A program made the position numbers and the translations under genes. Below, one piece after another: positions 16,339 to 33,731 of a DNA stretch of 64,000 bases. The notes under the pieces are model-generated. The model worked only from the letters and a program-made list of their open reading frames with translations. It ran no database searches and was not told the DNA's origin. The stretch comes from Thermoanaerobaculia bacterium (lineage in GTDB: Bacteria > Acidobacteriota > Thermoanaerobaculia > Multivoradales > J023): positions 496,001 to 560,000 of the forward strand of contig JAUIJL010000003.1 in NCBI GenBank assembly GCA_030431255.1, in the 5' to 3' direction. How positions within the stretch are numbered: the first letter of the stretch is position 1; each line of letters starts with the position of its first letter.

Positions 16339-20097
<3,759 letters not shown>

Positions 20098-20173
20098 AGC
20101 AGGCCCTCCTAGAAGACCGGGCGCCGGATTCGGCGCTGGGCGTGGGATCGAATCTGTCGCGGGGGCGACTTGC

Positions 20174-20198
20174 GGTCGGCATTGTACCGTTGCCGACC
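20174..20198 (-). promoter_or_regulatory. hairpin in metH leader
   Basis: GGTCGGCA (20174-20181) and TGCCGACC (20191-20198) are perfect complements around 9 nt, 77 bases upstream of the metH TTG start. No cobalamin- or SAH-riboswitch consensus was recognised in the leader. It may be an operator, a leader structure or chance. Confidence 0.35.
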
Positions 20199-20366
20199 CC
20201 CCAATGGTCGCATACGCTGGACCTGGGCACTGTAACGGTTTGGTCATGGGGACGCTCAGGAGCGAGTGTCACCGAAATCGATCGCCATCGGACCCGTCCA
20301 CGGGTACCGATGGTACGCCAAGGTGTAAACTGAGGGTCTGACGACCTTGTGGAGGATTTGCGAGCT

Positions 20367-21143
20367 ATGGCATCAAGTTTCTTTTACCACCTTGGCTACG
20401 GACATGACGATTTACCTGAGGATGCGCCAACGCTGGCCGTGCTGAGCGGCGACCCCGGCCGCGCCAAACGCATTGCCGACGATTATTTGGCGAGCGCGCG
20501 GACTCTCTCCGAAAACCGTGGATTGCACAGCTACCTTGGTTACCTAGAAAACGGGCGACCGATTCTCTCCGCCACCAGCGGCATGGGAGCGCCGTCGGCC
20601 TCCATCGTCATCAACGAGCTCGTGCAGCTCGGCATCAAAACCGTGATTCGCATCGGAACCTGCGGCTCGATCCAGGATCATGTCAAGTCCGGCTCAGTGG
20701 TGGTGTCGACCTCGGCTTTGGTCCGTCAGGGGGCGGCGCGGGACATCGCCCCCGAGGGATATCCGGCGGTCGCGGATCCGTTCCTCACCGTGGCCATGGT
20801 GGCAGCCGCCCGGGAGCTGGAGGTGGAGCACCACCATGGAATCACCGCCAGTGTCGATACTTTCTACGAAGGCCAAGAACGCTCGGACTCGTCGGCGAAT
20901 CCCCATCTCTTGCGCCGTCACCGGGGCATGACCGAAGAATTCCGCCACCTCAACGTGATCAACTTCGAAATGGAATGCGGCACGGTATTTACCATGGGCC
21001 AGGTCTACGGATTCCGCGCGGGCTGCGTCTGCGGGGTGATCGCGGCCCGCTCGGAAGATGAGCATCCCGATTTGAATGCCAAGACCCGTGCCGTCGACGG
21101 CGCCATCCGGGTGGCCCTCCGCGCCGCGGAAGACTTTGCCTAG
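20367..21143 (+). CDS. uridine phosphorylase-like nucleoside phosphorylase
   Basis: 258 residues, PNP_UDP_1 fold. Motifs: AVLSGDPGRAKRIA (phosphate loop), SATSGMGAPSASIVINEL, VIRIGTCGSIQ, and INFEMECGTVFTMGQ with the ribose-binding E-M-E. The substrate, uridine versus another nucleoside, cannot be fixed by eye. The ATG at 20367 has GGAGG eleven bases upstream; GTG 20349 is an alternative. Divergent from metH. Confidence 0.9.
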   Translation: MASSFFYHLGYGHDDLPEDAPTLAVLSGDPGRAKRIADDYLASARTLSENRGLHSYLGYLENGRPILSATSGMGAPSASIVINELVQLGIKTVIRIGTCGSIQDHVKSGSVVVSTSALVRQGAARDIAPEGYPAVADPFLTVAMVAAARELEVEHHHGITASVDTFYEGQERSDSSANPHLLRRHRGMTEEFRHLNVINFEMECGTVFTMGQVYGFRAGCVCGVIAARSEDEHPDLNAKTRAVDGAIRVALRAAEDFA

Positions 21144-21156
21144 GCGGCGGTCGCTC

Positions 21157-22461
21157 TTAAGGAGAGCGTCGCATCTCTTTTTGCAGCTGAAAAAGATAAG
21201 GGTAGAAGTCGACCTGGATGGTGTGCCGTTTTGAGGTCACGTAGCGCCGTCGGGTGCTTTGCCGATCCTCCTCGATGGCGCGTTTCATGCGATCTCGATC
21301 GGGCAGACCGGCCTGACCGGTCAGCAGCTTGCCGATCCATTGGGCTTGGGCTTCCGCCAAGGGCATGATCGCCCCCAAAGGCTGGATCAATCCCAGGAAA
21401 TAAAGCCCTTCGAGCTCGGGATGGACCACGTGGCGATACAGCTCCACCTCGTTGGCTGAGGAGCTGAGCAGCTCCTGGCTGAGGAAGGGGAAGCGGATCT
21501 TGTAGCCGGTGGCGTAGACCACGATATCGACCTCTTCCCGCGTGCCGTCCACAAACACGACCCCATCGCCGTCCAACCGCTCGAGATTCGGTTTCATTCG
21601 AATCTTGCCGTGGCCCACCAAATTGAGCAGATCGGCGGAGATGGTGGGGTGGGCTTGCAAGATGTGATGGTCCGGCTCAGGGACCCCATAGGACGCCTGT
21701 GAGCCTCGGGAAATACCCAGCACCACCTCGAAGAATTTTCGCTGCAGCGCCAGGGGTGTTTTGGCGCTCATGGGCGAGGTGAAGTGGTCGATCGGTTTGC
21801 CGAAAGCGTATTTCGGCAGAATATGGGCACTGCGGCGGGTGGATAGGAAAGTCTTTTCGGCCACCCGGCACACCTCACAGGCGATGTCGACGGCGCTGTT
21901 GCCGATGCCGACGATCAACGCCCGCTTGCCCTGGAAGCCCTCGAAGGTCTCGTATTCGTGGGAGTGGAAGGATCTGCCTGTGAAGGAGCCGGGGAACGGC
22001 GGCTCGGGCATGCGCGGACACCAATGGTGACCATTGGCCACCAACACCGCGTCATACGTCTCGGACTTTCGTCCGTCCGGTCCATCGACCGCTACCGTCC
22101 ATCCTCCGGATTCCCCGGGCTCGACGGATTGCACCTCGGTTTGAAACCGTATTCGGTCTCGCAGCCCAAAGTGGTTCACATAGCTCTCGAAGTAGTCCAG
22201 GATTTGGCTGTGGTGTGGGTAGTCCGGATAGTCGTCGGGCATAGGGTAGTCGGAGTAGGCCATCTTCTCTTTGGAAGTATTGATGTGCAGAGAAGCGTAG
22301 GAAGCCGACATGCCGTTGTCGTTCCGGAAGCGCCAATTGCCGCCGATTCCCGAGCCTTTTTCGAAGACCTCGTAGTCGAGCCCGTGCTCGGCAATGACCT
22401 TTGCCGCGACAATGCCCGACGATCCCGCACCGATCACACAAACCTTCTTCGACTCGGACAT
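21157..22461 (-). CDS. flavin-containing monooxygenase
   Basis: 434 residues from the ATG at 22461. FAD motif GAGSSG (11-16), FMO signature FTGRSFHSHEY (160-170; FxGxxxHxxxY) and NADPH motif GIGNSA (185-190), then the ATG-containing VVYATGYKIRFPF. This is a class B flavoprotein monooxygenase that oxygenates N, S or a ketone; substrate not evident. It is convergent with the nucleoside phosphorylase gene and divergent from a cysteine-dioxygenase-like gene, which hints at sulfur chemistry but does not prove it. Confidence 0.93.
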   Translation of the reverse strand: MSESKKVCVIGAGSSGIVAAKVIAEHGLDYEVFEKGSGIGGNWRFRNDNGMSASYASLHINTSKEKMAYSDYPMPDDYPDYPHHSQILDYFESYVNHFGLRDRIRFQTEVQSVEPGESGGWTVAVDGPDGRKSETYDAVLVANGHHWCPRMPEPPFPGSFTGRSFHSHEYETFEGFQGKRALIVGIGNSAVDIACEVCRVAEKTFLSTRRSAHILPKYAFGKPIDHFTSPMSAKTPLALQRKFFEVVLGISRGSQASYGVPEPDHHILQAHPTISADLLNLVGHGKIRMKPNLERLDGDGVVFVDGTREEVDIVVYATGYKIRFPFLSQELLSSSANEVELYRHVVHPELEGLYFLGLIQPLGAIMPLAEAQAQWIGKLLTGQAGLPDRDRMKRAIEEDRQSTRRRYVTSKRHTIQVDFYPYLFQLQKEMRRSP

Positions 22462-22791
22462 CCAAATCCCCTTTGGCTGTGACTCCGTTGACCCGGGCGG
22501 GAATCTATCAGACCTCCGTCCCGGCGCCGTGCGCCGAGGAGAGAGAGCTTCTCGGGACGGTGACAATTTGAAGACGATTAGGGCTAGGCTACCGGGGTGG
22601 CGACCCGATATCGTCGCAGGGCCGGACGCCGAAGGGCCTTCGGACTTCTATATTTTTTGCCTTCTTCGTTGGATTCAGTGCATTTCGTTGACCGGGCATT
22701 TCTCGACACGTCCTGGAATGCCCCTTTAACAGACATCGTGAGCGACATTTCGAGGTCACGATGTTTGTTGTTGTGAACTAAGGAGCAGACC
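22462..22791. promoter_or_regulatory. 330-bp divergent region with two tandem inverted repeats
   Basis: Separates the monooxygenase from the cysteine-dioxygenase-like gene. Inverted repeat 1: GGGCATT (22694-22700) and AATGCCC (22717-22723), extendable to 9 pairs. Inverted repeat 2: AACAGACATCGTGA (22728-22741) and TCACGATGTTTGTT (22756-22769), 14-base arms pairing throughout with one G.U, around 14 nt. The second ends about 11 bases before the AAGGAG of the downstream gene. CCGAAGGGCCTTCGG (22629-22643) is a third palindrome, followed by a T-rich stretch. No clear -35/-10 pair was found. Confidence 0.55.
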
Positions 22792-23364
22792 ATGACGACT
22801 CCCGCTTTCGAAGGCCGGCAAGAGCTGGTTCAACGCCTAAATCAAGCGGTCGGTCTCGGCCCGGTGGAAGAGGTCACCAAGTCGGTTCAGACCACGTTGG
22901 CCGAAATGATCGGCCAGCAGCGCCTCCGCCTGCCGGAGGAGCTGACCCGCCCCGTGGAAGGCAGCTACGCCCGCCGATTGCTCTATTTGAGCGAGGAGCA
23001 CGGCTATGTGGTGGTGGCGATGATCTGGGGCCCGAGCCAGGGCACGGCATTGCACGACCACGATGGCGTTTGGTGTGTGGAAGGGGTTCTCCAGGGGCAA
23101 ATCGACGTGACCCAATACGCGCACCTAGAAGAAGCTGGTGATCGTTGGCGTTTCGAGCCGGAGAAAACCGTCACCGCCGGTGTCGGCTCGTCCGGTACCT
23201 TGATCCCGCCGTTCGAGTACCACACCATCGCCAACCACCTCGCGGATTCGAGCTCGGTGACCGTTCATATCTACGCCCACGAGCTGCGCAAGGCGCATAT
23301 CTTTGAGCCGGAAGGCGAAGGTTGGTACCGTCGCACCGTTCGTGAGCTGGGCTATTCAAATTGA
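22792..23364 (+). CDS. cysteine-dioxygenase-type cupin
   Basis: 190 residues, one double-stranded beta-helix domain. The thiol dioxygenase motifs are present: WGPSQGTALHDHDGVWCVEG (His88 and His90 as iron ligands) and PPFEYHTIAN (His144 as third ligand). This family oxidises cysteine or 3-mercaptopropionate to sulfinates. Substrate assignment is not possible by eye. AAGGAG precedes the ATG. It is preceded by two tandem inverted repeats and followed by the operator array of the menaquinone operon. Confidence 0.88.
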   Translation: MTTPAFEGRQELVQRLNQAVGLGPVEEVTKSVQTTLAEMIGQQRLRLPEELTRPVEGSYARRLLYLSEEHGYVVVAMIWGPSQGTALHDHDGVWCVEGVLQGQIDVTQYAHLEEAGDRWRFEPEKTVTAGVGSSGTLIPPFEYHTIANHLADSSSVTVHIYAHELRKAHIFEPEGEGWYRRTVRELGYSN

Positions 23365-23372
23365 TTCCTTGA

Positions 23373-23431
23373 CTGAAATTATTGAAATTTCACTGAACTT
23401 ATTGAAGTTTCAAAAAGTCTTGAAATTTCAA
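23373..23431. promoter_or_regulatory. operator-like array of TTGAAATTTCAA half-sites
   Basis: YTGAAnTT occurs at 23373, 23382, 23393, 23402 and 23420, mostly 9-11 bp apart. Palindromes are TGAAATTTCA (23383-23392), the near-palindrome TTGAAGTTTCAA (23402-23413) and a perfect TTGAAATTTCAA (23420-23431). It lies 41 bp before the regulator gene and is much more AT-rich than its surroundings. Most likely the binding site of the regulator encoded next. Confidence 0.75.
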
Positions 23432-23448
23432 TTCTGACGGCTTATGAT
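23420..23448 (+). promoter_or_regulatory. sigma-70-like promoter of regulator-men operon
   Basis: -35 TTGAAA (23420-23425), 17-bp spacer, -10 TATGAT (23443-23448). The -35 box is half of the perfect palindrome, so bound repressor would block it. The expected transcript start is near 23455, 17 bases before the ATG. Confidence 0.65.
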
Positions 23449-23471
23449 CCGCTGCGAGGAGCGAAGCCGTC

Positions 23472-24047
23472 ATGAGTGAAATCGACAATGTCCGCGAGTC
23501 TTTCGTCCAGCTCTGGGGAGCCATGGGCTCGTTCTGGGGAATTTCTCCCACGGGCGCAAAGGTTTATGCCTGGTTGATGTCCCGAGCGGACCCCGCGGAC
23601 AGCGAAGAGATCATGGCCGGGCTGGAGCTCTCCCGGGGTGCCGTTTCCATGGCTTGCAAGGAGCTGCGGGAATGGCACCTCATCGAGGTGGAGAAGGCGC
23701 CCGGCTCCCGCCGTAGTCGTTTCCGACCCGCTACAGACCTCGAAAAAGTAGTCCGGAATATCGTTCAGATCAGAAAACGCAGGGAGTGGGATCCCCTCCG
23801 GGAGCACCTCTTGGAGTGGATTCCCCAATTGGAAGCTGAAGAATCTCCGGAGGCCGAGACTTTTCGTCGGCGTCTGGAGTCCCTGGAAGGTCTCATCACC
23901 CTCGCGGACTCGATGGTAGAGATGTTTCTCAAGGGCGGCATGGTCAGCAAGATCGGGCTGAAAATGTTGGTCAGGGCCTCGCGCTCCGATCTTCCGCACC
24001 CACAGTTGCGTTTTGAGCAAGCGACTCAAGATAAGGAGAGACCATGA
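23472..24047 (+). CDS. GbsR/MarR-type transcriptional regulator of men operon
   Basis: 191 residues. A winged-helix DNA-binding region (about 15-85) has WGISPTGAKVYAWLM, EEIMAGLELSRGAVSMACKE and the wing RRSRFRPATD; a long helical C-terminal region probably dimerises. The arrangement resembles the GbsR subfamily. Its ATG follows GAGGAG and its stop overlaps the polyprenyl synthase gene by ATGA, so it heads the operon and is probably autoregulated through the array upstream. Effector unknown. Confidence 0.85.
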   Translation: MSEIDNVRESFVQLWGAMGSFWGISPTGAKVYAWLMSRADPADSEEIMAGLELSRGAVSMACKELREWHLIEVEKAPGSRRSRFRPATDLEKVVRNIVQIRKRREWDPLREHLLEWIPQLEAEESPEAETFRRRLESLEGLITLADSMVEMFLKGGMVSKIGLKMLVRASRSDLPHPQLRFEQATQDKERP

Positions 24048-25234
24048 AGGTCGCTATCAGCCCTCCGGTGGTCGACCAGCCGACTCCCGAGCCTACCCTC
24101 GGTATTTCCCCCCCGGGCGTGGCGCCGGAAATCACCGCCGAGATTCCGAAGATCGCGGCCGGGACGCAGTCCGAGGTATCGGGTCTGCCCGCGGGTGTCG
24201 ACCTGCTGGAGCGTCTCGAAGGCATCTGCGTCGACCAAGGCTTGTCGAGCTTGGCTCACCGTTTGGGGGCGATGACCGGCCTCGTGGCGGCGGATTTGGC
24301 GGCCTTCGAGGTCGAGCTCGACGGTCTGCCCTCCCGCCCGGAGAAGGTGGGTCGGGCCGCGAGCCATCTGCTCGACCTCGGTGGCAAGCGGCTTCGGCCC
24401 CTGTGTTTGGCGTTGGCAACCCGAATCGGCGACGGATTCGACCAAAAGGGGTTGGACCTCGCCGTGGCCGTGGAGCTGGTCCACTCGGCGACGCTGCTCC
24501 ACGACGACGTGGTGGACCTCAGCGATCAGCGGAGGGGCTCGGCCACCGCGAGAACGATTTACGGCAATGCAGCGTCGATTTTCGCCGGTGATTGGTTATT
24601 GGTCGAGGCCTTGCGCAGGGTTCGCAAATCCGGCTATCTAGAGCTGCTGGATCAGCTGTTGGCGGTCATTGAAGAGATGATTTTCGCCGAGTCCCTGCAG
24701 CTCGAAAACCGAGGGCGCTTGTCGATGGATCGCCGAACCTATTTCAAGGTCGTCGAAGGCAAAACGGCGTCCGTGTTCCGCTGGGCGATGACCGCCGGCG
24801 GTGTGGCCGGCGGCCTCGACCGAGATCAACAACAGGCTTTGGCCACCTACGGAGATCACTTGGGGATCACGTTCCAGGCGGTGGACGACCTTTTGGACCT
24901 GACCGGCGACAGCGCGAAGACCGGCAAGGCCCTGTTCACGGATTTGCGGGAGGGCAAGATGACCCTGCCGATGATCTTGGCCCTGGAACGGCGATCCGAG
25001 CTCCGTGATTTGGTGGAAGAGGTGCTGGCTCTCGGTGCGGAGGAGCCCATACCGGGCAGCCTGGGTCGAGCCATCATCGAGCATTTGCGGGAAAGCGGCA
25101 CGGTGGACGATTGCTTGACCATGGCCCGCGAGCGCAGTGCCGCGGCGGTCGAGGCGTTGCAGGGTCTTCCGTCCGGTCCGGCTCGTCAAGCGTTGGCGAC
25201 CGTCGCCGAAGCGATCATCGATCGGGACCTATGA
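24044..25234 (+). CDS. long-chain polyprenyl diphosphate synthase
   Basis: 396 residues. It builds the isoprenoid side chain, here presumably for menaquinone given the operon. GGKRLRPLCL, first Asp-rich motif DDVVD (154-158) in LLHDDVVDLSDQRRG and second DDLLD (about 280-284) are intact. An N-terminal extension of about 70-90 residues, Pro-rich at first, is longer than in usual 320-residue synthases. Chain length cannot be read with certainty. Confidence 0.93.
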   Translation: MKVAISPPVVDQPTPEPTLGISPPGVAPEITAEIPKIAAGTQSEVSGLPAGVDLLERLEGICVDQGLSSLAHRLGAMTGLVAADLAAFEVELDGLPSRPEKVGRAASHLLDLGGKRLRPLCLALATRIGDGFDQKGLDLAVAVELVHSATLLHDDVVDLSDQRRGSATARTIYGNAASIFAGDWLLVEALRRVRKSGYLELLDQLLAVIEEMIFAESLQLENRGRLSMDRRTYFKVVEGKTASVFRWAMTAGGVAGGLDRDQQQALATYGDHLGITFQAVDDLLDLTGDSAKTGKALFTDLREGKMTLPMILALERRSELRDLVEEVLALGAEEPIPGSLGRAIIEHLRESGTVDDCLTMARERSAAAVEALQGLPSGPARQALATVAEAIIDRDL

Positions 25235-25245
25235 GGGGCGAGACC

Positions 25246-26049
25246 ATGACGACTCCAGCGACTCGCCCTTTTGGCTCCGTGCGTCCGGGATCGGGCGCCA
25301 TGTTCGACCGCATCGCCGATCGCTACGATTTGGTGAATCGGATCATGACTTTCGGCCTCGACCGTTCCTGGCGTAAAAAAACTGTCGACAGCTTGGGCCT
25401 GCGCGCGGGCAGCCGAATCCTCGATTTGGCGACGGGCACGGGGGATATGGCTCTCGAGGTGCTGCGTCGGCAGGCCGACGCCCAAGTGGTGGGCTTGGAT
25501 CCATCCTCGGAAATGCTCGCCATCGGCCGGGAGAAAGTGCGTAAGCAGCAGCTAGAGGCATCCATTGAGCTGCGGGAAGGCCGCGCCGAATCCTTGCCCT
25601 TTGAGGACGATTCCTTTGACGGCATCTGCATGGCCTACGGTATCCGCAATGTTGCGGACCGACCTGCGGCCCTTCGCGAGATGGCCCGGGTCACCCGTCC
25701 GGAGGGTCGAATCGCCATCCTCGAAGCCACCGATGTTCGCTCCGGAATTCTGGCTCCCTTCGCCCGCTTTCACGTTTACCACGTGATGCCTCGCCTAGGG
25801 GCTTGGCTGTCCAGCTCCGAGGAATATCGATACCTACAAAGCTCGATCACCGCCTTCCCGACCCCGGAGGCCTTTGTGGAGCTGATGGCGGAGTGTGGCC
25901 TGGAGAGCCTAGCCACCCATTCCATGACCTTCGGCGCCAATACCTTATTTGTGGTGCGGCCGGCTGAGGTGCGGCCGGCCGAGGTGCGACCGGCCGAGAC
26001 GGGGAACGGTGAAACAGGGAGCGTTGAGAGCCGGGGAGGTGTGCGATGA
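25246..26049 (+). CDS. menG: demethylmenaquinone methyltransferase
   Basis: 267 residues, SAM-dependent C-methyltransferase of the UbiE/MenG family, last step of menaquinone synthesis. GSGAMFDRIADRYDLVNR and ILDLATGTGDMAL (motif I, about 60) are characteristic, as is DGICMAYGIRNVADR. The ATG at 25246 follows GAGGGG; an ATG at 25231 overlapping the previous stop is an alternative. The C-terminus carries a tail of about 25 residues made by a 15-bp repeat (VRPAE)n, absent in usual UbiE proteins. ATGA overlap with menF. Confidence 0.94.
   Translation: MTTPATRPFGSVRPGSGAMFDRIADRYDLVNRIMTFGLDRSWRKKTVDSLGLRAGSRILDLATGTGDMALEVLRRQADAQVVGLDPSSEMLAIGREKVRKQQLEASIELREGRAESLPFEDDSFDGICMAYGIRNVADRPAALREMARVTRPEGRIAILEATDVRSGILAPFARFHVYHVMPRLGAWLSSSEEYRYLQSSITAFPTPEAFVELMAECGLESLATHSMTFGANTLFVVRPAEVRPAEVRPAETGNGETGSVESRGGVR
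25954..25998 (+). repeat. 15-bp tandem repeat in menG tail
   Basis: Three units of GTGCGRCCGGCYGAG encode (VRPAE)3. The phase-shifted 15-mer GGCTGAGGTGCGGCC (25962-25976) is identical to the unit of the array at 57093. Confidence 0.9.
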
Positions 26050-27482
26050 GCTCGCTGATCGCTCCGGCCACCACGATTCCCTCCTTGCCCCAGGGAGCAG
26101 GTGCTCAGCAAACCGTCGAAGACGGCTGGATCGAGAGCTTTCTCGCCCCTCGGCTGGAGGCGGCCGCGAAACGGCCGACCCACACCTGGCTTGCGATTCC
26201 AGCTCCCGTCGGGCCGGTCGAGCGGCTGTTGGAGATCTCCAGCCTAGACCATGGCGCGGTTTGGGATCCCCCCCACGACGTTTCATTCTCCGGGGTGGGG
26301 ACGGCTTGGAAGGCCCAGCTCCGGGGAGAGAGCCGTTTCCACGATTTGCGCACCGAGGCGGGGCGCATGCTCGGCGAGCTGCACGCCGAATCCCACCCTG
26401 CGGCCTTGGCTTTCGAGCCGCGGGTAGTGGGAGGTTTCGCCTTTGATGTGGGAGCGGCGGACGAGGATCCGTGGCGAGACTTCGGTGACGGTTGTTTTAC
26501 CCTGCCGCGATTCGTCTACGGTAGCGACGGCATCTCCGCCATGTTGGCGCTGACCGTGCACGGCAAGGAGCTGTCGGGCCCCGGCCGATTGCAGGATTTC
26601 ATTTCGGAAATTCGGCGAATCTGGAACAGCTTACAACCGACGACGCCCCGGCAGCTCGGAAAGGTCCTCGAGGTCGCCCCCAGGCCGGCTGTGGATCCTG
26701 TGCCGGAAGACGGAGCCGAGTGGATTCGTCGGATCGAAGACATCCGAGAGGCCATCGGCCGTGGAGAGGTGGAGAAGATCGTCGCCGCGCGACGGGCAGA
26801 GGTCTCCCTGCCGGCGGCATTGGACGTAGCGAAGGTGCTGGGCTTGCTCGGCCACGGGCTGAGGGAGTCGACCCGTTTCGCCTTCTGTCGAGAGAACGCC
26901 GTTTTTCTGGGTGTCACCCCCGAGCGATTGTTGGCCAAAGAAGGGCTCAAGATCCACACCGAAGCTCTCGCCGGCTCGATCGAGCGGGGCCATGGCGAAG
27001 AGCTGTTGGACAGCGGTAAGGATCGGCTCGAGCAGCAGCTGGTGGTGGATTCGATCGTCCGTCGCTTGGAGCCCCTTTGCGATCGCTTGCAAGTGGCGGC
27101 CCGTCCTACGGTCCGGGAGCTCCGGGATGTGGTCCATCTCCACACCCCGATTCACGGTCAGCTCGGAGCCCCTCGGCATATCCTGGAGTTGGTCGAGGAG
27201 CTGCATCCCACCCCGGCGGTGGGCGGCGTGCCCACCCCTTCGGCCATGGCCTGGATTTCCGAGCGCGAGACCCACGCGCGGGGATGGTACGCGGCGCCCA
27301 TCGGGTGGTTCGATGCCCGCGGAGACGGTGAATTGGCGGTAGCCCTCAGGTCCTGCTTGTTGGCGCCGGAAAAGGCCTACCTCTTCGTCGGCGCGGGCAT
27401 CGTCGCGGACTCCGATCCCGAGCTGGAGCTCAGGGAAACGGAGCTCAAAAAACAAGCTATGCTGTCGGCCCTACAAGGATAG
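26046..27482 (+). CDS. menF: isochorismate synthase
   Basis: 478 residues, chorismate-binding enzyme. EKIVAARRAEVSL, FLGVTPERLLAK, the catalytic region TEALAGSIERG, HPTPAVGGVPT and ERETHARGWYAAPIGW are hallmarks of MenF/EntC. It converts chorismate to isochorismate, substrate for MenD encoded next. Starts by ATGA overlap with menG; 50 bp separate it from menD. Confidence 0.95.
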   Translation: MSSLIAPATTIPSLPQGAGAQQTVEDGWIESFLAPRLEAAAKRPTHTWLAIPAPVGPVERLLEISSLDHGAVWDPPHDVSFSGVGTAWKAQLRGESRFHDLRTEAGRMLGELHAESHPAALAFEPRVVGGFAFDVGAADEDPWRDFGDGCFTLPRFVYGSDGISAMLALTVHGKELSGPGRLQDFISEIRRIWNSLQPTTPRQLGKVLEVAPRPAVDPVPEDGAEWIRRIEDIREAIGRGEVEKIVAARRAEVSLPAALDVAKVLGLLGHGLRESTRFAFCRENAVFLGVTPERLLAKEGLKIHTEALAGSIERGHGEELLDSGKDRLEQQLVVDSIVRRLEPLCDRLQVAARPTVRELRDVVHLHTPIHGQLGAPRHILELVEELHPTPAVGGVPTPSAMAWISERETHARGWYAAPIGWFDARGDGELAVALRSCLLAPEKAYLFVGAGIVADSDPELELRETELKKQAMLSALQG

Positions 27483-27532: not shown

Positions 27533-29320
27533 TTGAAGACGGATCACGCTCGGATTCAAAGCGAATGGGCTAGATTGTTGATCGGGAGCTTGGCCGACGC
27601 TGGAGTCCGTCACGTGGTGATCAGCCCCGGAGCGCGATCGACCCCCTTTGTGCTCGCCGCCGCGTCAGAGTCGAGGTGGGTGCTGCACGATGTGGTGGAC
27701 GAGCGTTGCGCCGCCTTTTACGCCCTCGGCCAAGCCCGGGCCACCGGCCATCCGAGCCTCTTGATCTGCACCTCGGGAACCGCCGGTGCCAATTACTTTC
27801 CCGCCGTGGTTGAGGCCGGGGCATCCCACACACCCCTCTTGATCCTAACCGCCGACCGACCCGTGGAGCTCGTGGGTTGCGGCGCCAATCAGGCGATCGA
27901 TCAGCTCAAAATCTTCGGCGATCACGCGAGAGGGTTCTTCGATCTCGGCCTGGCCGACGAGCACCCGGCCGCCCTGAGGGGCTTGCGCAGGATCGCCGCC
28001 CAAGCGGTGTTCACGGCCTCCTGGCCGGAGCCGGGCGCGGTGCACCTCAACGCTCGAGCGCGCAAACCCCTGGAGCCGCCTCGGCAGAAAGAACAGGGGC
28101 CGGAGCTGACCTCGGATCTGCAGCGTCGGGTCGACAGCTTGCTGGCGGGACCGATCGCCAAGGGTTGTCGCCCGGTCGCTTCCCCGGCAGACCTCGATCT
28201 CGATGAGCTGATCGATGCGTGTGAGGGCACCGAGAAGGGAGTGATCGTCGCCGGTCCGTCGCCCCTTTCCCACGCGGCTTTGGTGGAAGCGGTGGCCGAG
28301 CTTTCGCGACGCACGGGATTCCCCGTGCTGGCGGAGTCCTCGAGCCAGCTCCGACGTCCATCCGGGCGGCGTTTGGACGCCTTCGACGCCATCTATCGGA
28401 CCCCGACGGGACGAAAAGCTCTAGCCCCCGACCTGGTGGTGCAAATCGGCCGGGTGCCGGTGTCCGGAGCCTGGGGGCAAGCTTTGGCGTTGAGGGCGGG
28501 AAGCTTCAACCACTGGGTGATCTCACCCTTCGGCTGGAACGACTCCGAATCCACCGCCACGGCCGTGTTGGCGGCGGATCCCGCCGCCACTCTTCGTCGG
28601 CTGCTCAGGCGGCTGGAGAATAAGGAGCGGGTGACCCCTTGGACCGGACAATGGCGTCGGGTGGCCAGCGCCTATCGCCGAGTGCTGGATCCCATTCTCG
28701 ACGGCGACGATCTGAGCGAGGCCAAGCTCGCCCGAGCGGTCTCCCTTTCGGTGCCGGCGGGCGGTCTCTTGGCCCTCGGAAACAGCTTGCCGATTCGGCT
28801 GCTCGACGCTTTCGGCAAAGGACCGGCGGCGGGCGTCGGGGTGCTCTGCCAGCGCGGGGTCAGCGGCATCGACGGCTTGGTTTCAGGCGCCGCCGGGGCC
28901 GCGGAAGCCACCGGTCGTGCGACCCTCCTCTATTTGGGAGACGTCAGCCTCTGGCACGATTTAGGAGGTTTGGCTACGGTGCCCCGAGAAGGACCGCCGT
29001 TTGTGATCGTCGTGGCCCAGAATCAAGGCGGTCGGATTTTTGAGCAGCTGCCGGTAGCCCATTTGCCGGGCATCTCACAACAGACTCTGGATCATTGGGT
29101 GACGCCTCAACATCGCTCGTTCGAGGCGGTTGCCGAAGGATTTGAGCTCAAATACCGTCGAATCGACAAGGTGGATGTGTTGCGCCGTTGTTTGATGGAA
29201 GCCTTCGATATCGGCGGAGCTTGGTTGATCGAAGCGGTGGTTCCACCCCACGAGGCGGCGGAGACCGGCTCCCGGTTACGGATGGCCCTGGATCAAGAGC
29301 TGGCACGTATTCTGAGCTGA
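27533..29320 (+). CDS. menD: SEPHCHC synthase MenD
   Basis: 595 residues, thiamine-diphosphate enzyme joining isochorismate and 2-oxoglutarate. N-terminal HVVISPGARSTPFVLAA, CTSGTAGANYFPAVVEA and LILTADRP are MenD-specific. The C-terminal ThDP domain contains LYLGDVSLWHDLGGL and VVAQNQGGRIFEQLP. TTG start with AGGAGA six bases upstream. Normal length. Confidence 0.96.
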   Translation: MKTDHARIQSEWARLLIGSLADAGVRHVVISPGARSTPFVLAAASESRWVLHDVVDERCAAFYALGQARATGHPSLLICTSGTAGANYFPAVVEAGASHTPLLILTADRPVELVGCGANQAIDQLKIFGDHARGFFDLGLADEHPAALRGLRRIAAQAVFTASWPEPGAVHLNARARKPLEPPRQKEQGPELTSDLQRRVDSLLAGPIAKGCRPVASPADLDLDELIDACEGTEKGVIVAGPSPLSHAALVEAVAELSRRTGFPVLAESSSQLRRPSGRRLDAFDAIYRTPTGRKALAPDLVVQIGRVPVSGAWGQALALRAGSFNHWVISPFGWNDSESTATAVLAADPAATLRRLLRRLENKERVTPWTGQWRRVASAYRRVLDPILDGDDLSEAKLARAVSLSVPAGGLLALGNSLPIRLLDAFGKGPAAGVGVLCQRGVSGIDGLVSGAAGAAEATGRATLLYLGDVSLWHDLGGLATVPREGPPFVIVVAQNQGGRIFEQLPVAHLPGISQQTLDHWVTPQHRSFEAVAEGFELKYRRIDKVDVLRRCLMEAFDIGGAWLIEAVVPPHEAAETGSRLRMALDQELARILS

Positions 29321-29336: not shown

Positions 29337-30146
29337 ATGGAACCTCTGGTTCTTTTACACGGATTTACCGGCCGCGGCAGCTCTTGGGATCGGGTGCTGC
29401 AGGCCCTCATGATCCACAGCTTGCCGAATCCGGTCGATGGTTGGTCGCCGGATTTGCCGGGCCACGGCTCTTCCAGCCGGGTCCGTCCCGAGTCCTTCGA
29501 GATGACCGCTGAGCGCGTCCGCGCCGAGATCCAGCAGCGCTTTTCCCAACCGATTACCCTGGTGGGCTATAGCCTGGGAGCCCGCCTCGCCCTGGGGGTT
29601 GCGGTCAGCCTACCGAGCCTGGTGAAACGATTGGTGCTGATCAGTGTCCAGCCGGGCATCAACCTGGTGCACGAGAGGCGCGCACGAGCGGACGCGGACG
29701 CCGGGCTGGCGGAGCGAATCCAGCGCGACGGGTTGGAGTCGTTCATCACCCACTGGCAATCGCTACCCATCTTCGCCGGTCAAAACCGCCTACCGACCGA
29801 GGTGCTGGTGCGGCAGACTCAGCATCGCCTGTCCAACGACCCTGAAGGTCTGGCTTGGGCGGTTCGCACACTTTCGCCAGGTTTGATGCCCGACTACCGC
29901 CCGGCGTTGAAGAAGTGGACCCATTGCCCGGTGACCCTGGTGACGGGGGCCTCGGATGAGAAATTCACCACCATCAATCGGGAGCTGGCGCTGAACGCTT
30001 CGGATCGTGTCGAGCACCGAGTCCTGCGGGGCGTGGGGCACAACCCGGTGCTCGAGGTCCCTGACGAAGTGGCGGCGTTGGTGGCCGAAGTGCTGACGGA
30101 ACCGAGTCGGGGAGCGCGCGCTCCATGGGAGCGGTGGAGGAAGTGA
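29337..30146 (+). CDS. menH: SHCHC synthase-like alpha/beta hydrolase
   Basis: 269 residues. Oxyanion region [20 protein letters not shown], nucleophile elbow GYSLGAR (Ser about 79), and late Asp/His of GASDEKF and [11 protein letters not shown] complete the triad. Its place between menD and menA makes the MenH role (elimination of pyruvate from SEPHCHC) likely. GAGGAG precedes the ATG. Confidence 0.92.
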
Positions 30147-30147
30147 A

Positions 30148-31083
30148 GTGAGTCGATCCAGCTCAGCTCAAGGCTCGGATGCGGAGAGAGGAGCTAAACC
30201 GGGCTCCCTGAAAGCCTGGGTCATAGCTTCGAGAATTCCGACCCTCACCGCCGCCCTGGCACCGGTAGCGGTGGGCGCGGCGGTCGCGGAGGTCAGCGGA
30301 GGGGCTCGTCTGTGGCCGACCGTGGCCGCGGCTTGGGCCGCAATTTGGATCCAAATCGGCACCAACTTCGCCAACGACGTCTACGATTTTGAAAAAGGCG
30401 CCGATACGGGCGAGCGCTTAGGTCCGACCCGCGCCGTGCAAGCCGGTTTGTTGAGCGCCGAGCAAATGCGGACGGGCATGGTGCTCGCCTTTCTCTCGGC
30501 AACGGTAGGCGGCGCGGGGCTCATGTACTTCGCGGGATGGCCGATGTTTTGGGTCGGCTTCTTTTCGATCGCGTCCGGCATCGCCTATACCGGCGGCCCG
30601 TTCCCCCTGGGTTATAACGGCCTGGGAGACCTCTTCGTGATGATCTTTTTCGGCTTCGTGGCGGTATGCGGCACGGCCTATGCGAGCCTGCTGGTGATTC
30701 CGTCCCTGGCGTGGTGGGCCTCGATTCCTCCGGGGGCGCTTGCCACGGCCATTCTCGTGGTCAACAACGTCCGGGATCGTAAGACCGATCTCGAAGCGGG
30801 CAAGCGGACCCTGGCGGTGCGTTTAGGCCGGAAGACGGCTTTGGCCGAATACCTCCTGCTCTTGATCGCTTCCTATGCCGTTCCCGTCGGCCTCGTGCTG
30901 TGGGCAGATTCGAACTTTTGGGTGCTCCTTCCGTGGCTGTCCCTACCCATGGCGTGGAGCGCCTTTCGGGGTTTGCTGACCCTCGAGGGGAAGGCGTTGA
31001 ACGGAATTCTGGTGGCGACGGCCCGTCTGCTGATCGTATTCGGCGTGCTCTTCACCATCGGGTTGGTGCTCGGTCTCGGATGA
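30148..31083 (+). CDS. menA: 1,4-dihydroxy-2-naphthoate polyprenyltransferase
   Basis: 311 residues, integral membrane UbiA-family enzyme with about eight or nine hydrophobic helices. The two Asp-rich motifs are [11 protein letters not shown] (about 75) and [22 protein letters not shown]. It attaches the polyprenyl chain to DHNA. GTG start one base after the menH stop. Confidence 0.95.
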
Positions 31084-31122: not shown

Positions 31123-32277
31123 ATGACCCGGGGCATCCAGCCGTCTCTTTTTCCCTTTCGTCGGGACCTCCCGCGGGCAGCCTCGAGCTCTCGCGCGGCC
31201 TGGAGGGAGCGAGAGGGACTGTGCTTGAGGATCGAAACCCCGTCCGGTGGGGTCTTCGGATGGGGTGAAGCGTCGCCTTTGCCCGGCTATTCTCCGGAGT
31301 CCCTGAAAGAAGCCACAGAGGCGCTGGAAGCCGTGGTCTTGGCCCCGGAGGCCCTTCAAGGGATGCTTGCGTCGGCCGACCCAACCTCCGTTCAAGCCCA
31401 TGTCGAACACGGCTTGAGCAGACTGGCTTCGGACGGCCTACTGTTACCCGGATCGGCTCGTTTCGCCCTGGAAACCGCATTGCTGGACCTGGCAGGGCGA
31501 GCCCATGGGTTGCCGATGCCCGCCCTATGGTCCGCCGATCGAACCCTTGGATGGGAGCAGCTTCGGGTGGCGAGGCTCTGCCCGGACGCGGAGGAGTTTC
31601 AACCGACCCGTGGGTCCGGCGCGAGCTCTGTGCTCAAGGTGAAGGTGGGTCGAGATGGGGCCTTTGCTCGGGAGCTCCAAGCTCTGCGGCAGATTCGTCG
31701 GCAAGATCCGGCTCTCGAGCTGCGCTTGGACGCCAACGGTGCCTGGGACCGGGAGATCGCATCCGAGCATCTGAGACAGCTGAGCGAGCTCCGTATCCGC
31801 TGGATCGAAGAGCCGACCACGCCGCGAGACTCCGACGACTTGGCTCATTGGATAGCGGTCTCTCCAGTTCCGGTCGCCCTCGACGAATCGTTGCAGCGGC
31901 TGGCGATCAAACCTGAGGATCTGGGGCGTCTACGCCCGGCTGCGTTGATCCTCAAACCCCATGTGCTCGGAGCCATCCGCTGTCTGGAGATGGGTCGCTC
32001 CGCCCTGAAGCTCGGCATCGAAACCGTGGTGTCTCACCTATTCGATGGCCCCTTGGCCTATCGCTCCTCCTACGCCTTGGCGTTGGCGCTCGACAGCATG
32101 AGGGCTCGGCAAAGACGGCAGCCTCCGCTGGGTGAAGCTCAAGATCGTGACGCCCACCCAGCCCATGGGCTGGGCCGCCATCCGGGCCTCGCGGCTTGGC
32201 CGGAGGTGGCGGAGGAGATGAGCGCACCGCCGTCTACCTGGGGTCCAGGTCTAGGGCTCTCATGGGAGATGTCATGA
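31123..32277 (+). CDS. menC: o-succinylbenzoate synthase
   Basis: 384 residues, enolase superfamily. Catalytic KxK in VLKVKVGRD, metal ligands in LRLDANGAWD, IEEPT and ALDES, and LKP in ALILKPHVLG. It dehydrates SHCHC to o-succinylbenzoate. The 35 residues after SYALALALDSM are richer in Arg/Pro than expected but regain HGLGRHPGLAAW and GPGLGLS, as usual at the C-terminus. Overlaps menE by ATGA. Confidence 0.92.
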   Translation: MTRGIQPSLFPFRRDLPRAASSSRAAWREREGLCLRIETPSGGVFGWGEASPLPGYSPESLKEATEALEAVVLAPEALQGMLASADPTSVQAHVEHGLSRLASDGLLLPGSARFALETALLDLAGRAHGLPMPALWSADRTLGWEQLRVARLCPDAEEFQPTRGSGASSVLKVKVGRDGAFARELQALRQIRRQDPALELRLDANGAWDREIASEHLRQLSELRIRWIEEPTTPRDSDDLAHWIAVSPVPVALDESLQRLAIKPEDLGRLRPAALILKPHVLGAIRCLEMGRSALKLGIETVVSHLFDGPLAYRSSYALALALDSMRARQRRQPPLGEAQDRDAHPAHGLGRHPGLAAWPEVAEEMSAPPSTWGPGLGLSWEMS

Positions 32278-33731
32278 GCCAAAGCCTGTCTATCTTCGCC
32301 GCGGCGGAGCAGGCTGCCGATCAATTGGCAGTGGTTGGTGCGGAACGGCAATGGACCTTCGCCGAGGTCGCGCGGGAGGTCGGCAAGGTGTTGATGGACC
32401 TCCGTGCACAGCGACCCGGCCTTGGGCCCGGTGCCTTGTTGGCTTTTTCCGGTACGTGCACGGCGGAGGGTTTGTGGACGATCTACGCGGCTCTCGAGCT
32501 GGGATGCGGTGTGGTGCCCTTACATGCTCGGTGGACCGCCTTGGAGCGGCGGGAATTCGTCGACCGTTTAGAAGCCGGTCCGGAGTGGGATCTGAGGGAT
32601 CTGGGGCGAAATCGGCAAGAGCCCGCTCCATTGGAACCTCAGAGCTCGAGCCCAATCGACCCAGAAGCCCTGTTGGCGATGCTCTCCACCTCGGGCTCCA
32701 CCGGACCGCCGAAGGGGGTCGCGCTCTCCCGCCGTGCCTTCATGGCGTCCGCCCAAGCCGATGCCTCCAACGTCGGTCGGTGTGCAGGGGATAGAACCCT
32801 GCTCAGCCTGCCCCTGGCCCATGTGGGCGGGCTCTCGATCGTGATTCGCAGCCTCATCGCCAGGTCGGCGGTGGTCCTGCCCCCGCCGACCGGAAGATTC
32901 GAGCCGGAGGCCTTCGTCCGTTGGCTCCATCGGTTTGACGTCACCCTGCTGTCGCTGGTGCCGACCATGTTGCAGCGCTTGCTCGAGGCGGACGCCCGTC
33001 CCGGACCTAAGCTCCGGGCGGTGCTCTTGGGAGGCGCCGCAGCTTCCGCGGATCTGGTGAACCGGGCCCGTTCCGTCGGCTGGCCGGTGCTACGGACCTA
33101 CGGCTTGACCGAGGCCTGCTCCCAAGTGGCCACCGAGCGCCTCTCAGAGCTCCACACCGGGGGCGAAGAAAGAAGTCTACGAGACGGTGAGGTCGGACCC
33201 CTGCTGCCGGGGGTGGAGGGGCGGATCGTCGAAGGGCGGCTCGAGCTGCGCGGACCGACCCTCCTGTCGGATTATGTGCCGAAGGTGACGGGCAAACCCG
33301 CCATAAGCTCCGAGGGTTGGTTTGCAACCGGCGACTTGGCTCGATTCGATTCTGAGAGAAGGCTCCAAATCCTCGGCCGAGCGGACGACGTGATCATCTC
33401 CGGCGGCGAAAACGTCTCGCCCGCCGAAGTGGAAATGGCCTTGGAAAGCCATCCCGCGGTGGTGACGGCGGCGGTGTTCGCGGTTCGAGATCCGGAGTGG
33501 GGGCAAGCGGTCCGAGCCCGGGTAGTGGCCGTGGACGGCGCCGTGATCGCGGGCCCGGAGCTGCGGGAGTTTCTTCGTGGACGTTTGGCGGGCTTCAAGA
33601 TTCCGCGGCAGATCGAGGTGGTGCCGTCCCTGGCGACCACAGCCAGCGGCAAGATCGACCGCAGAATGATCGGCAAGGCGCTCCAAGAGCAGGCCCTTTC
33701 GAAAGCCACAGAGCTGGGGTCCGCTGATTGA
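32274..33731 (+). CDS. menE: o-succinylbenzoate-CoA ligase
   Basis: 485 residues, ANL-family adenylating enzyme. P-loop LSTSGSTGPPKGVALS, YGLTEACSQVA, and GRADDVIISGGENVSPAEVE plus the C-terminal Lys in TASGKIDRRM. It activates o-succinylbenzoate for MenB. The start at 32274 is set by ATGA coupling with menC. Last gene of the operon; menB is not found beside it. Confidence 0.93.
   Translation: MSQSLSIFAAAEQAADQLAVVGAERQWTFAEVAREVGKVLMDLRAQRPGLGPGALLAFSGTCTAEGLWTIYAALELGCGVVPLHARWTALERREFVDRLEAGPEWDLRDLGRNRQEPAPLEPQSSSPIDPEALLAMLSTSGSTGPPKGVALSRRAFMASAQADASNVGRCAGDRTLLSLPLAHVGGLSIVIRSLIARSAVVLPPPTGRFEPEAFVRWLHRFDVTLLSLVPTMLQRLLEADARPGPKLRAVLLGGAAASADLVNRARSVGWPVLRTYGLTEACSQVATERLSELHTGGEERSLRDGEVGPLLPGVEGRIVEGRLELRGPTLLSDYVPKVTGKPAISSEGWFATGDLARFDSERRLQILGRADDVIISGGENVSPAEVEMALESHPAVVTAAVFAVRDPEWGQAVRARVVAVDGAVIAGPELREFLRGRLAGFKIPRQIEVVPSLATTASGKIDRRMIGKALQEQALSKATELGSAD

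Follow-up and report, generated by a model that had tools for sequence, protein, structure and literature searches.

The FabT system of Enterococcus, Streptococcus and Lactococcus is built around a MarR-family regulator whose coding sequence, in many cases, overlaps or directly adjoins that of the first enzyme, with the levels of regulator and enzymes coupled on one mRNA (PMC13046290). As described in the same source, FabT serves the fatty acid pathway, and its ligand, acyl-acyl carrier protein, increases operator binding. Here we describe a locus with a similar layout in a 64,000-nucleotide stretch of the genome of a Thermoanaerobaculia bacterium (hereafter the window), wherein a GbsR/MarR-type regulator gene (REG) comes first, overlaps the next gene by ATGA, and heads a cluster of polyprenyl diphosphate synthase and menaquinone (vitamin K2; men) genes that it would control and whose order is kept in 13 relatives. 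REG differs from FabT in this target cluster and in a sequence and fold that are nearest to the GbsR type. Judging from sequence comparisons, we consider it likely, at a probability of roughly 0.7, that REG is a self-repressing regulator of the polyprenyl synthase–men operon that also reaches the mevalonate pathway in two lineages of the same order, family f5 and genus g7.

Three other systems invite comparison. CrtR of Corynebacterium glutamicum and its orthologues is a MarR-type repressor of genes of an isoprenoid-derived pathway and of itself, and its binding to DNA is hindered by geranylgeranyl diphosphate and, to a lesser degree, by other isoprenyl diphosphates. The CrtR targets are carotenoid genes, crtR is divergent from its neighbor, and the operator is given as a 15-bp motif with a central TTAA (PMC7432914). 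The REG dyad consensus is without a central TTAA, and REG is co-directional with its cluster. The structure on which GbsR-type proteins have been modeled, Mj223 (1ku9), is among the two that match REG best. In Bacillus subtilis, the operator of OpcR overlaps the −35 region and that of GbsR is an A/T-rich inverted repeat, both of which the conserved dyad at the REG promoter resembles; the genes controlled there concern choline and glycine betaine, the signal of GbsR is choline, and the GbsR half-sites are described as separated by 4 bp and as lying downstream of the start site (PMC7396694). Finally, MhqR of Staphylococcus aureus is a MarR-type repressor linked to quinones, but it is described as a quinone-resistance regulator, not as the product of the head gene of quinone synthesis (PMC6798810). 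Among titles and abstract openings in the open-licence PMC literature, we found no MarR/GbsR regulator dedicated to a men operon of the classical kind.

The putative operator emerged from an alignment of 14 promoters, anchored on the −35 box, that represent the 13 REG-bearing genomes outside g7 and contig L045. Their consensus is a perfect 26-bp dyad, GAAnTTTCAA-N6-TTGAAAnTTC, whose right half contains the −35 box and which is followed by TAnnnT at 17 bp. The inner columns TTCA (left half) and TTGAA (right half) are invariant (14/14), the outer columns are weaker (GAA, 8–10/14; TTC, 11–13/14), and no column outside the dyad and the −10 box rises above about 0.8 bit. This conserved A/T-rich inverted repeat, a feature of GbsR-type binding sites, is our candidate operator. 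The window dyad matches all 18 consensus positions, a score that 0 of 1000 shuffles reach. Over the 14 promoters, the observed score is reached by 0/1000 shuffles in 11 cases, by one each for G025 (locus L014) and L045, and by 17 for G038 (L019). An earlier note on this DNA, made from the letters alone, had named a lack of half-site conservation upstream of orthologues as an outcome that would speak against its reading; instead, every one of the order's 13 REG genomes that do not belong to g7 has a dyad over the −35 box, weakly so in G038.

Contig L045 (JAKFYL010000383.1), which is labeled Planctomycetota and is possibly misbinned or mislabeled, encodes a REG 62% identical to that of the window behind a similar operator. 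In 11 of the 14 promoters, an in-frame ATG or GTG start of the regulator lies 6 to 9 nt past the −10 box, and leaderless mRNAs are therefore predicted; some have further possible starts. The corresponding distance is 23 nt in the window, where a Shine–Dalgarno-like GAGGAG is present, and 53 nt in G002; in L045 the −10 box is out of register.

The window carries additional copies of the half-site. Within 23373–23448, five YTGAAnTT half-sites start at 23373, 23382, 23393, 23402 and 23420 on the + strand, a density (5 in 76 bp) that none of 5000 dinucleotide shuffles attains; in the whole 64-kb window, the + strand has 10 of them and the − strand 4. Their spacings are 9, 11, 9 and 18 bp, and the interval of about 10 bp given in the earlier note thus describes the first four but not the fifth. 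Other elements of that description were borne out. The region has 27.6% GC, as compared to 55–66% in 500-bp windows over 20000–27000; the palindrome TTGAAATTTCAA is exact at 23420–23431 and contains the −35 box; and a consensus scan finds the sigma-70-like promoter TTGAAA-17-TATGAT at 23420–23448 as the sole match in 22500–24100 (1 found; shuffle mean, 0.3). Near-copies of the palindrome lie at 23402–23413 (TTGAAGTTTCAA) and, with one mismatch, at 23382–23393, and TTGAARTTTCAA occurs at three places in the 10.2-Mb genome, two of them within the array and one inside an open reading frame (ORF; G000:C35).

The earlier note took these half-sites to be a helically phased array that implies cooperative binding. 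Such an arrangement, with several dimers bound along the array as a feature of the circuit, has in its favor the 18- to 20-bp distances between the window dyad and its upstream near-copies, as well as the extension of the left dyad edge to TTGAA or CTGAA in G002 and G001. However, the half-sites at 23373, 23382 and 23393 fall in unconserved columns of the 14-promoter alignment and are without counterpart in relatives, and we consider this reading rather unlikely. What is conserved as a unit is one 26-bp dyad, and the phased array was rejected as a general functional unit; because the three upstream half-sites are not conserved, cooperativity would be at most specific to the window's genome. 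We also noted an inverted repeat, GACGGCTT/AAGCCGTC at 23436–23443/23464–23471, that spans the −10 box and the ribosome-binding region. An RNA hairpin formed by this repeat was discarded as a candidate, since its left arm precedes the point where the transcript is expected to begin and the aligned relatives do not show the repeat.

The distribution of REG was examined in 72 genomes of this Thermoanaerobaculia order, with orthologues called at E<=1e-40. REG is present in 34 of them (6/7 in family f1, 4/4 in f5 and 24/24 in f4, with none in the other six families). MenD scores above the curated cut-off in 31/72 genomes, comprising 31 of the 34 with REG versus 0 of the 38 without it. In the three exceptions, a contig end cuts MenD (G004 and G031) or REG lies on a 3.4-kb contig (L047 of G327). 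In 29 of the 31 genomes, the two genes are on one contig and no more than about 6 kb apart; in G009 and G025, the REG contig ends first. Within this order, REG accompanies the classical menaquinone pathway.

These genome-wide comparisons bear on a second alternative, wherein the dyad belongs to a different regulator of general reach, such as a redox protein of the FNR/CRP type, and REG is a mere neighbor. FNR-type sites read TTGAT-N4-ATCAA, which the TTGAA...TTCAA arrangement of the dyad resembles, and in g7 the dyad is located far from REG in the genome. A general regulator would be expected to have many sites, yet the window's genome has a single dyad match at up to two mismatches, which is the men promoter with no mismatch (the reversed-pattern control also gives one match). 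Moreover, matches with zero or one mismatch track REG, occurring in 24/34 genomes that have it versus 0/38 others; with two mismatches counted in, 4 of the 38 have one. We therefore hold this explanation to be quite improbable. TTTCA-N7-TTGAAA occurs at four further places in the window's genome, where no men gene was seen by eye within about 1.5 kb, and the reversed control for this pattern gives one place per strand.

In genus g7 of family f4, the dyad is found at a different gene. This group of 21 genomes, whose nine g7-type rows in the REG tree include Candidatus Multivorans, lives in sponges. MenD is above cut-off in 21/21 genomes and on the REG contig in 20/21, and no dyad precedes REG. 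Of 31 loci, the 19 named ones of g7 type have no site within 600 bp upstream of men, and the best score in 2.2 to 6 kb of sequence upstream of the g7-type men loci is 12/18. In locus L054, REG starts 10 bp behind an ORF without a Pfam match, whereas 6 of the 19 named loci have a different sequence directly before REG. Each of the 21 genomes has exactly one genome-wide dyad match at up to two mismatches, located 159–169 bp upstream of the start of 3-hydroxy-3-methylglutaryl-CoA (HMG-CoA) synthase, versus 0 matches for the reversed-pattern control in these genomes. The enzyme is identified by PF01154 above cut-off, its best NCBIfam model (TIGR01835) being under the equivalog cut-off. Conserved upstream of this gene are the dyad, the adjoining TTCCAATAGTTCAG and a TGCTAYnGT block, but not the sequence before the dyad.

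HMG-CoA synthase upstream regions were found in 19 of 23 genomes searched (none in G025, G031, G007 and G011). Seven such regions from g7 score 15–16/18, six of them reached by 0/500 shuffles and one by 2, whereas the 250 bp upstream of the gene in 12 non-g7 genomes (9 with REG, 3 without) score 8–12/18 and reveal no site. The G004 (12; 3/500 shuffles) and G010 (12; 25/500) regions were not counted as sites. In the REG tree, g7 forms a well-supported clade (100/99) among men-type lineages, with the branching order of f4, f5 and g7 unsettled. The simplest reading is that the dyad was lost at men and gained at HMG-CoA synthase in g7. The circuit also looks wider than the control of quinone synthesis proposed in the earlier note, taking in HMG-CoA reductase in f5 and HMG-CoA synthase in g7.

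The g7 arrangement is also what would speak for activation of the operon by REG, because the dyad there lies upstream of the likely promoter in an activator-like position. At men promoters, however, the dyad itself contains the −35 box, and OpcR, with an operator in a comparable overlap with the −35 region, is described as a repressor (PMC7396694), which makes an activator hardly probable. It is very improbable that conservation reflects only a strong AT-rich promoter with no operator, for although TTGAAA is a −35 box and the preceding A tract is similar to an UP element, the upstream TTTCA (13–14/14 per base) and the downstream TTC (11–13/14) are not promoter elements and complete the dyad around N6, and the g7 dyad stands apart from the apparent −10 block.

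The protein itself is consistent with the GbsR/MarR-like assignment made in the earlier note, with MarR_2 falling just under its cut-off (Table 1). Against archaeal and GbsR-like NCBIfam models REG scores far under the cut-offs, with 24.4 for CudC (cut-off 218) and 27 for Lrs14 (cut-off 90), and is therefore neither of these but at most a distant superfamily member. A profile search with an alignment of 13 orthologues gave 5jbr (Bcav_2135; E 1.6e-13) and 1ku9 (Mj223; E 8.8e-11) as the best solved relatives. The structure predicted from a 13-sequence alignment (mean predicted local distance difference test score, 78.1) has 1ku9_A and 5jbr_A as its best PDB fold matches (both E 1.4e-7 and TM 0.54 by query length). 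REG is thus predicted to adopt a winged-helix fold as in Mj223, of the GbsR type, and SRGAVSM, located in the presumed recognition helix, is invariant in the 13 aligned orthologues. Among nine neighborhoods of distant homologues, one homologue precedes a polyprenyl synthase (G016) and one a UbiA-family prenyltransferase (G059), and no prenyl-related gene was seen directly downstream in the other seven; these neighborhoods weakly favor an isoprenoid theme.

REG and the eight genes behind it, from polyprenyl synthase through menG, menF, menD, menH, menA and menC to menE, all point in one direction. The ATGA fusion of regulator and men genes claimed previously is real as an overlap, but the partner is the polyprenyl diphosphate synthase gene, with the men genes behind it. 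This same gene comes next after REG in 14/14 neighborhoods (13 close orthologues and the window). The genes menG, menF and menD then follow in 12 of the 13 close-orthologue neighborhoods, the contig ending in the remaining one, and menH is found in 9 and menA and menE in 6 of these 13. In the window, the ORFs of the men cluster (29337–31083), the one place examined for it, include no menB; in G001 (L027) and G017 (L035), menB (TIGR01929 above cut-off) lies between menH and menA.

In family f5, an HMG-CoA reductase gene (TIGR00532 above cut-off) lies between polyprenyl synthase and menG in G010, G018 and G031, the G025 contig ending earlier. HMG-CoA reductase was detected in 10/10 genomes tested, two of them without REG. 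The REG–polyprenyl synthase–men cluster of G010 also includes 3-deoxy-D-arabino-heptulosonate 7-phosphate (DAHP) synthase (L033 3148–4119; TIGR01361 above cut-off), which links the entry to the shikimate pathway with the menaquinone genes. With HMG-CoA reductase and DAHP synthase, this cluster thus gathers both precursor branches of menaquinone.

Table 1. Features of the REG promoter and men cluster, with coordinates in the window.
Feature	Position	Strand	Basis and remarks
Extra half-sites CTGAAATT, TTGAAATT, CTGAACTT	23373..23400	+	Include near-palindrome 23382-23393; specific to the window's genome; direct repeats spaced 20 and 18 bp
Predicted operator dyad GAAGTTTCAA-AAAGTC-TTGAAATTTC	23404..23429	+	Consensus GAAnTTTCAA-N6-TTGAAAnTTC; columns conserved over 14 promoters
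Perfect palindrome TTGAAATTTCAA	23420..23431	none	Sequence
-35 box TTGAAA	23420..23425	+	Consensus scan; TTGAA in 14/14 promoters
-10 box TATGAT, 17-bp spacer	23443..23448	+	Consensus scan; T, A, T of TAnnnT each 13/14
GbsR/MarR-type regulator gene (REG, P0001), 191 aa	23472..24047	+	Pfam MarR_2 E 1.4e-5, 25.6 bits (cut-off 27)
Polyprenyl diphosphate synthase	24044..25234	+	PF00348 E 1.4e-59; start overlaps REG stop (ATGA, 24044-24047)
menG (demethylmenaquinone methyltransferase)	25243..26049	+	TIGR01934 above cut-off
menF (isochorismate synthase)	26046..27482	+	TIGR00543 above cut-off
menD	27533..29320	+	TIGR00173 above cut-off
menH-like hydrolase	29337..30146	+	TIGR03695 189.8 bits, under cut-off 208.55
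menA	30148..31083	+	NF004751 and TIGR00751 above cut-off
menC-like o-succinylbenzoate synthase	31123..32277	+	TIGR01927 117.5 bits, under cut-off 130.55
menE-like CoA ligase	32196..33731	+	TIGR01923 277.6 bits, under cut-off 330.15; true start probably further in

Taken at the level of prediction, a dedicated, self-controlling regulator of the men genes is well supported by conservation. In the mechanism that we propose, a winged-helix dimer of REG would occupy the 26-bp dyad, which covers the −35 box, and block RNA polymerase; REG would thereby repress the operon to which it belongs, with its genes for polyprenyl diphosphate synthase and for the men pathway. A single mRNA would carry the regulator and the enzymes, which would render the repression self-limiting, as with FabT. 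A pathway metabolite may set the level of repression; we guess at either a prenyl diphosphate or an intermediate of the naphthoquinone type. An isoprenoid signal, as with CrtR, is suggested by the recurring partners of REG and its dyad (polyprenyl synthase in 14/14 neighborhoods, HMG-CoA reductase in f5 and HMG-CoA synthase in g7). The mevalonate pathway would be reached through the HMG-CoA reductase gene of the f5 cluster and through the operator upstream of HMG-CoA synthase in g7, where the mode of REG may differ and might even be activation.

Several observations weigh against a self-repressing REG of this reach. The co-occurrence is confined to one order and follows its clades, so that the genome counts, coming from related genomes, are not independent and the 34 REG genomes represent few independent events. 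Likewise, the spacing of the dyad is no independent result, because the sites were located by scanning with the consensus at a fixed N6. The G038 site is weak (13/18), and four of the 13 men operators (G003, G004, G038 and G327) miss the strict pattern at two mismatches. Neither menA nor menE was found in the sequence retrieved around REG of G003, G006 and G010. The model that identifies the f5 HMG-CoA reductases is named 'degradative', and a biosynthetic role is accordingly presumed from the gene setting. In g7, the TGCTAYnGT block that resembles a −10 box follows only well downstream of the dyad, which is a misfit with simple blocking; activation by REG is one possibility at this place, and binding of a different protein is another.

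Nor is there a sign of a larger regulon, since the 72 genomes have 16 dyad matches away from the promoters of men and of HMG-CoA synthase, versus 14 for the reversed-pattern control. Eleven of these 16 further matches lie inside ORFs (as delimited by a crude ORF caller; two are doubtful), and inspection by eye of the surrounding ORFs placed none of the 16 beside a quinone or isoprenoid gene, save one case in G001. This G001 match, with two mismatches and upstream of chorismate synthase, is taken as chance because the control also has one match in that genome.

Elsewhere in the genome that contains the window, we observed four tandem 16-codon ORFs of a shared plan (MNVTTDIRSGFYPWID, MNIQSRVKSGNFPWID, MNVQSKVNAGSFPWVN and MNIQSDIKAGLFPWID) that start about 105–150 bp apart on the minus strand (L233 8997–9431; G000:C42:58996–59430). 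They look like an array of small peptides or of precursors of ribosomally synthesized and post-translationally modified peptides; no modifying enzyme was seen by eye among the surrounding ORFs, on which no family search was run.

A putative operator conserved over 13 genomes offers a direct in vitro test of the proposal. A more tentative idea, which we consider possible but doubtful, casts REG as the sensor of a feedback loop. It would respond to isoprenoid diphosphates, or else to a naphthoquinone intermediate, and keep the mevalonate flux in balance with the demand for menaquinone, and the controlled node would have been rewired in evolution. The rewired nodes would be the men promoter in most lineages, the in-cluster HMG-CoA reductase in f5 and, by way of a relocated operator, HMG-CoA synthase in g7. 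As a biosensor, the regulator could also be used to detect isoprenoid or quinone intermediates. The dyad at a mevalonate gene in g7 would, if the reading is true, be a clear case of natural target switching wherein the regulator was kept on one pathway logic, and the feedback sensor would be a bacterial counterpart, in logic and not in homology, of the feedback control of HMG-CoA enzymes.
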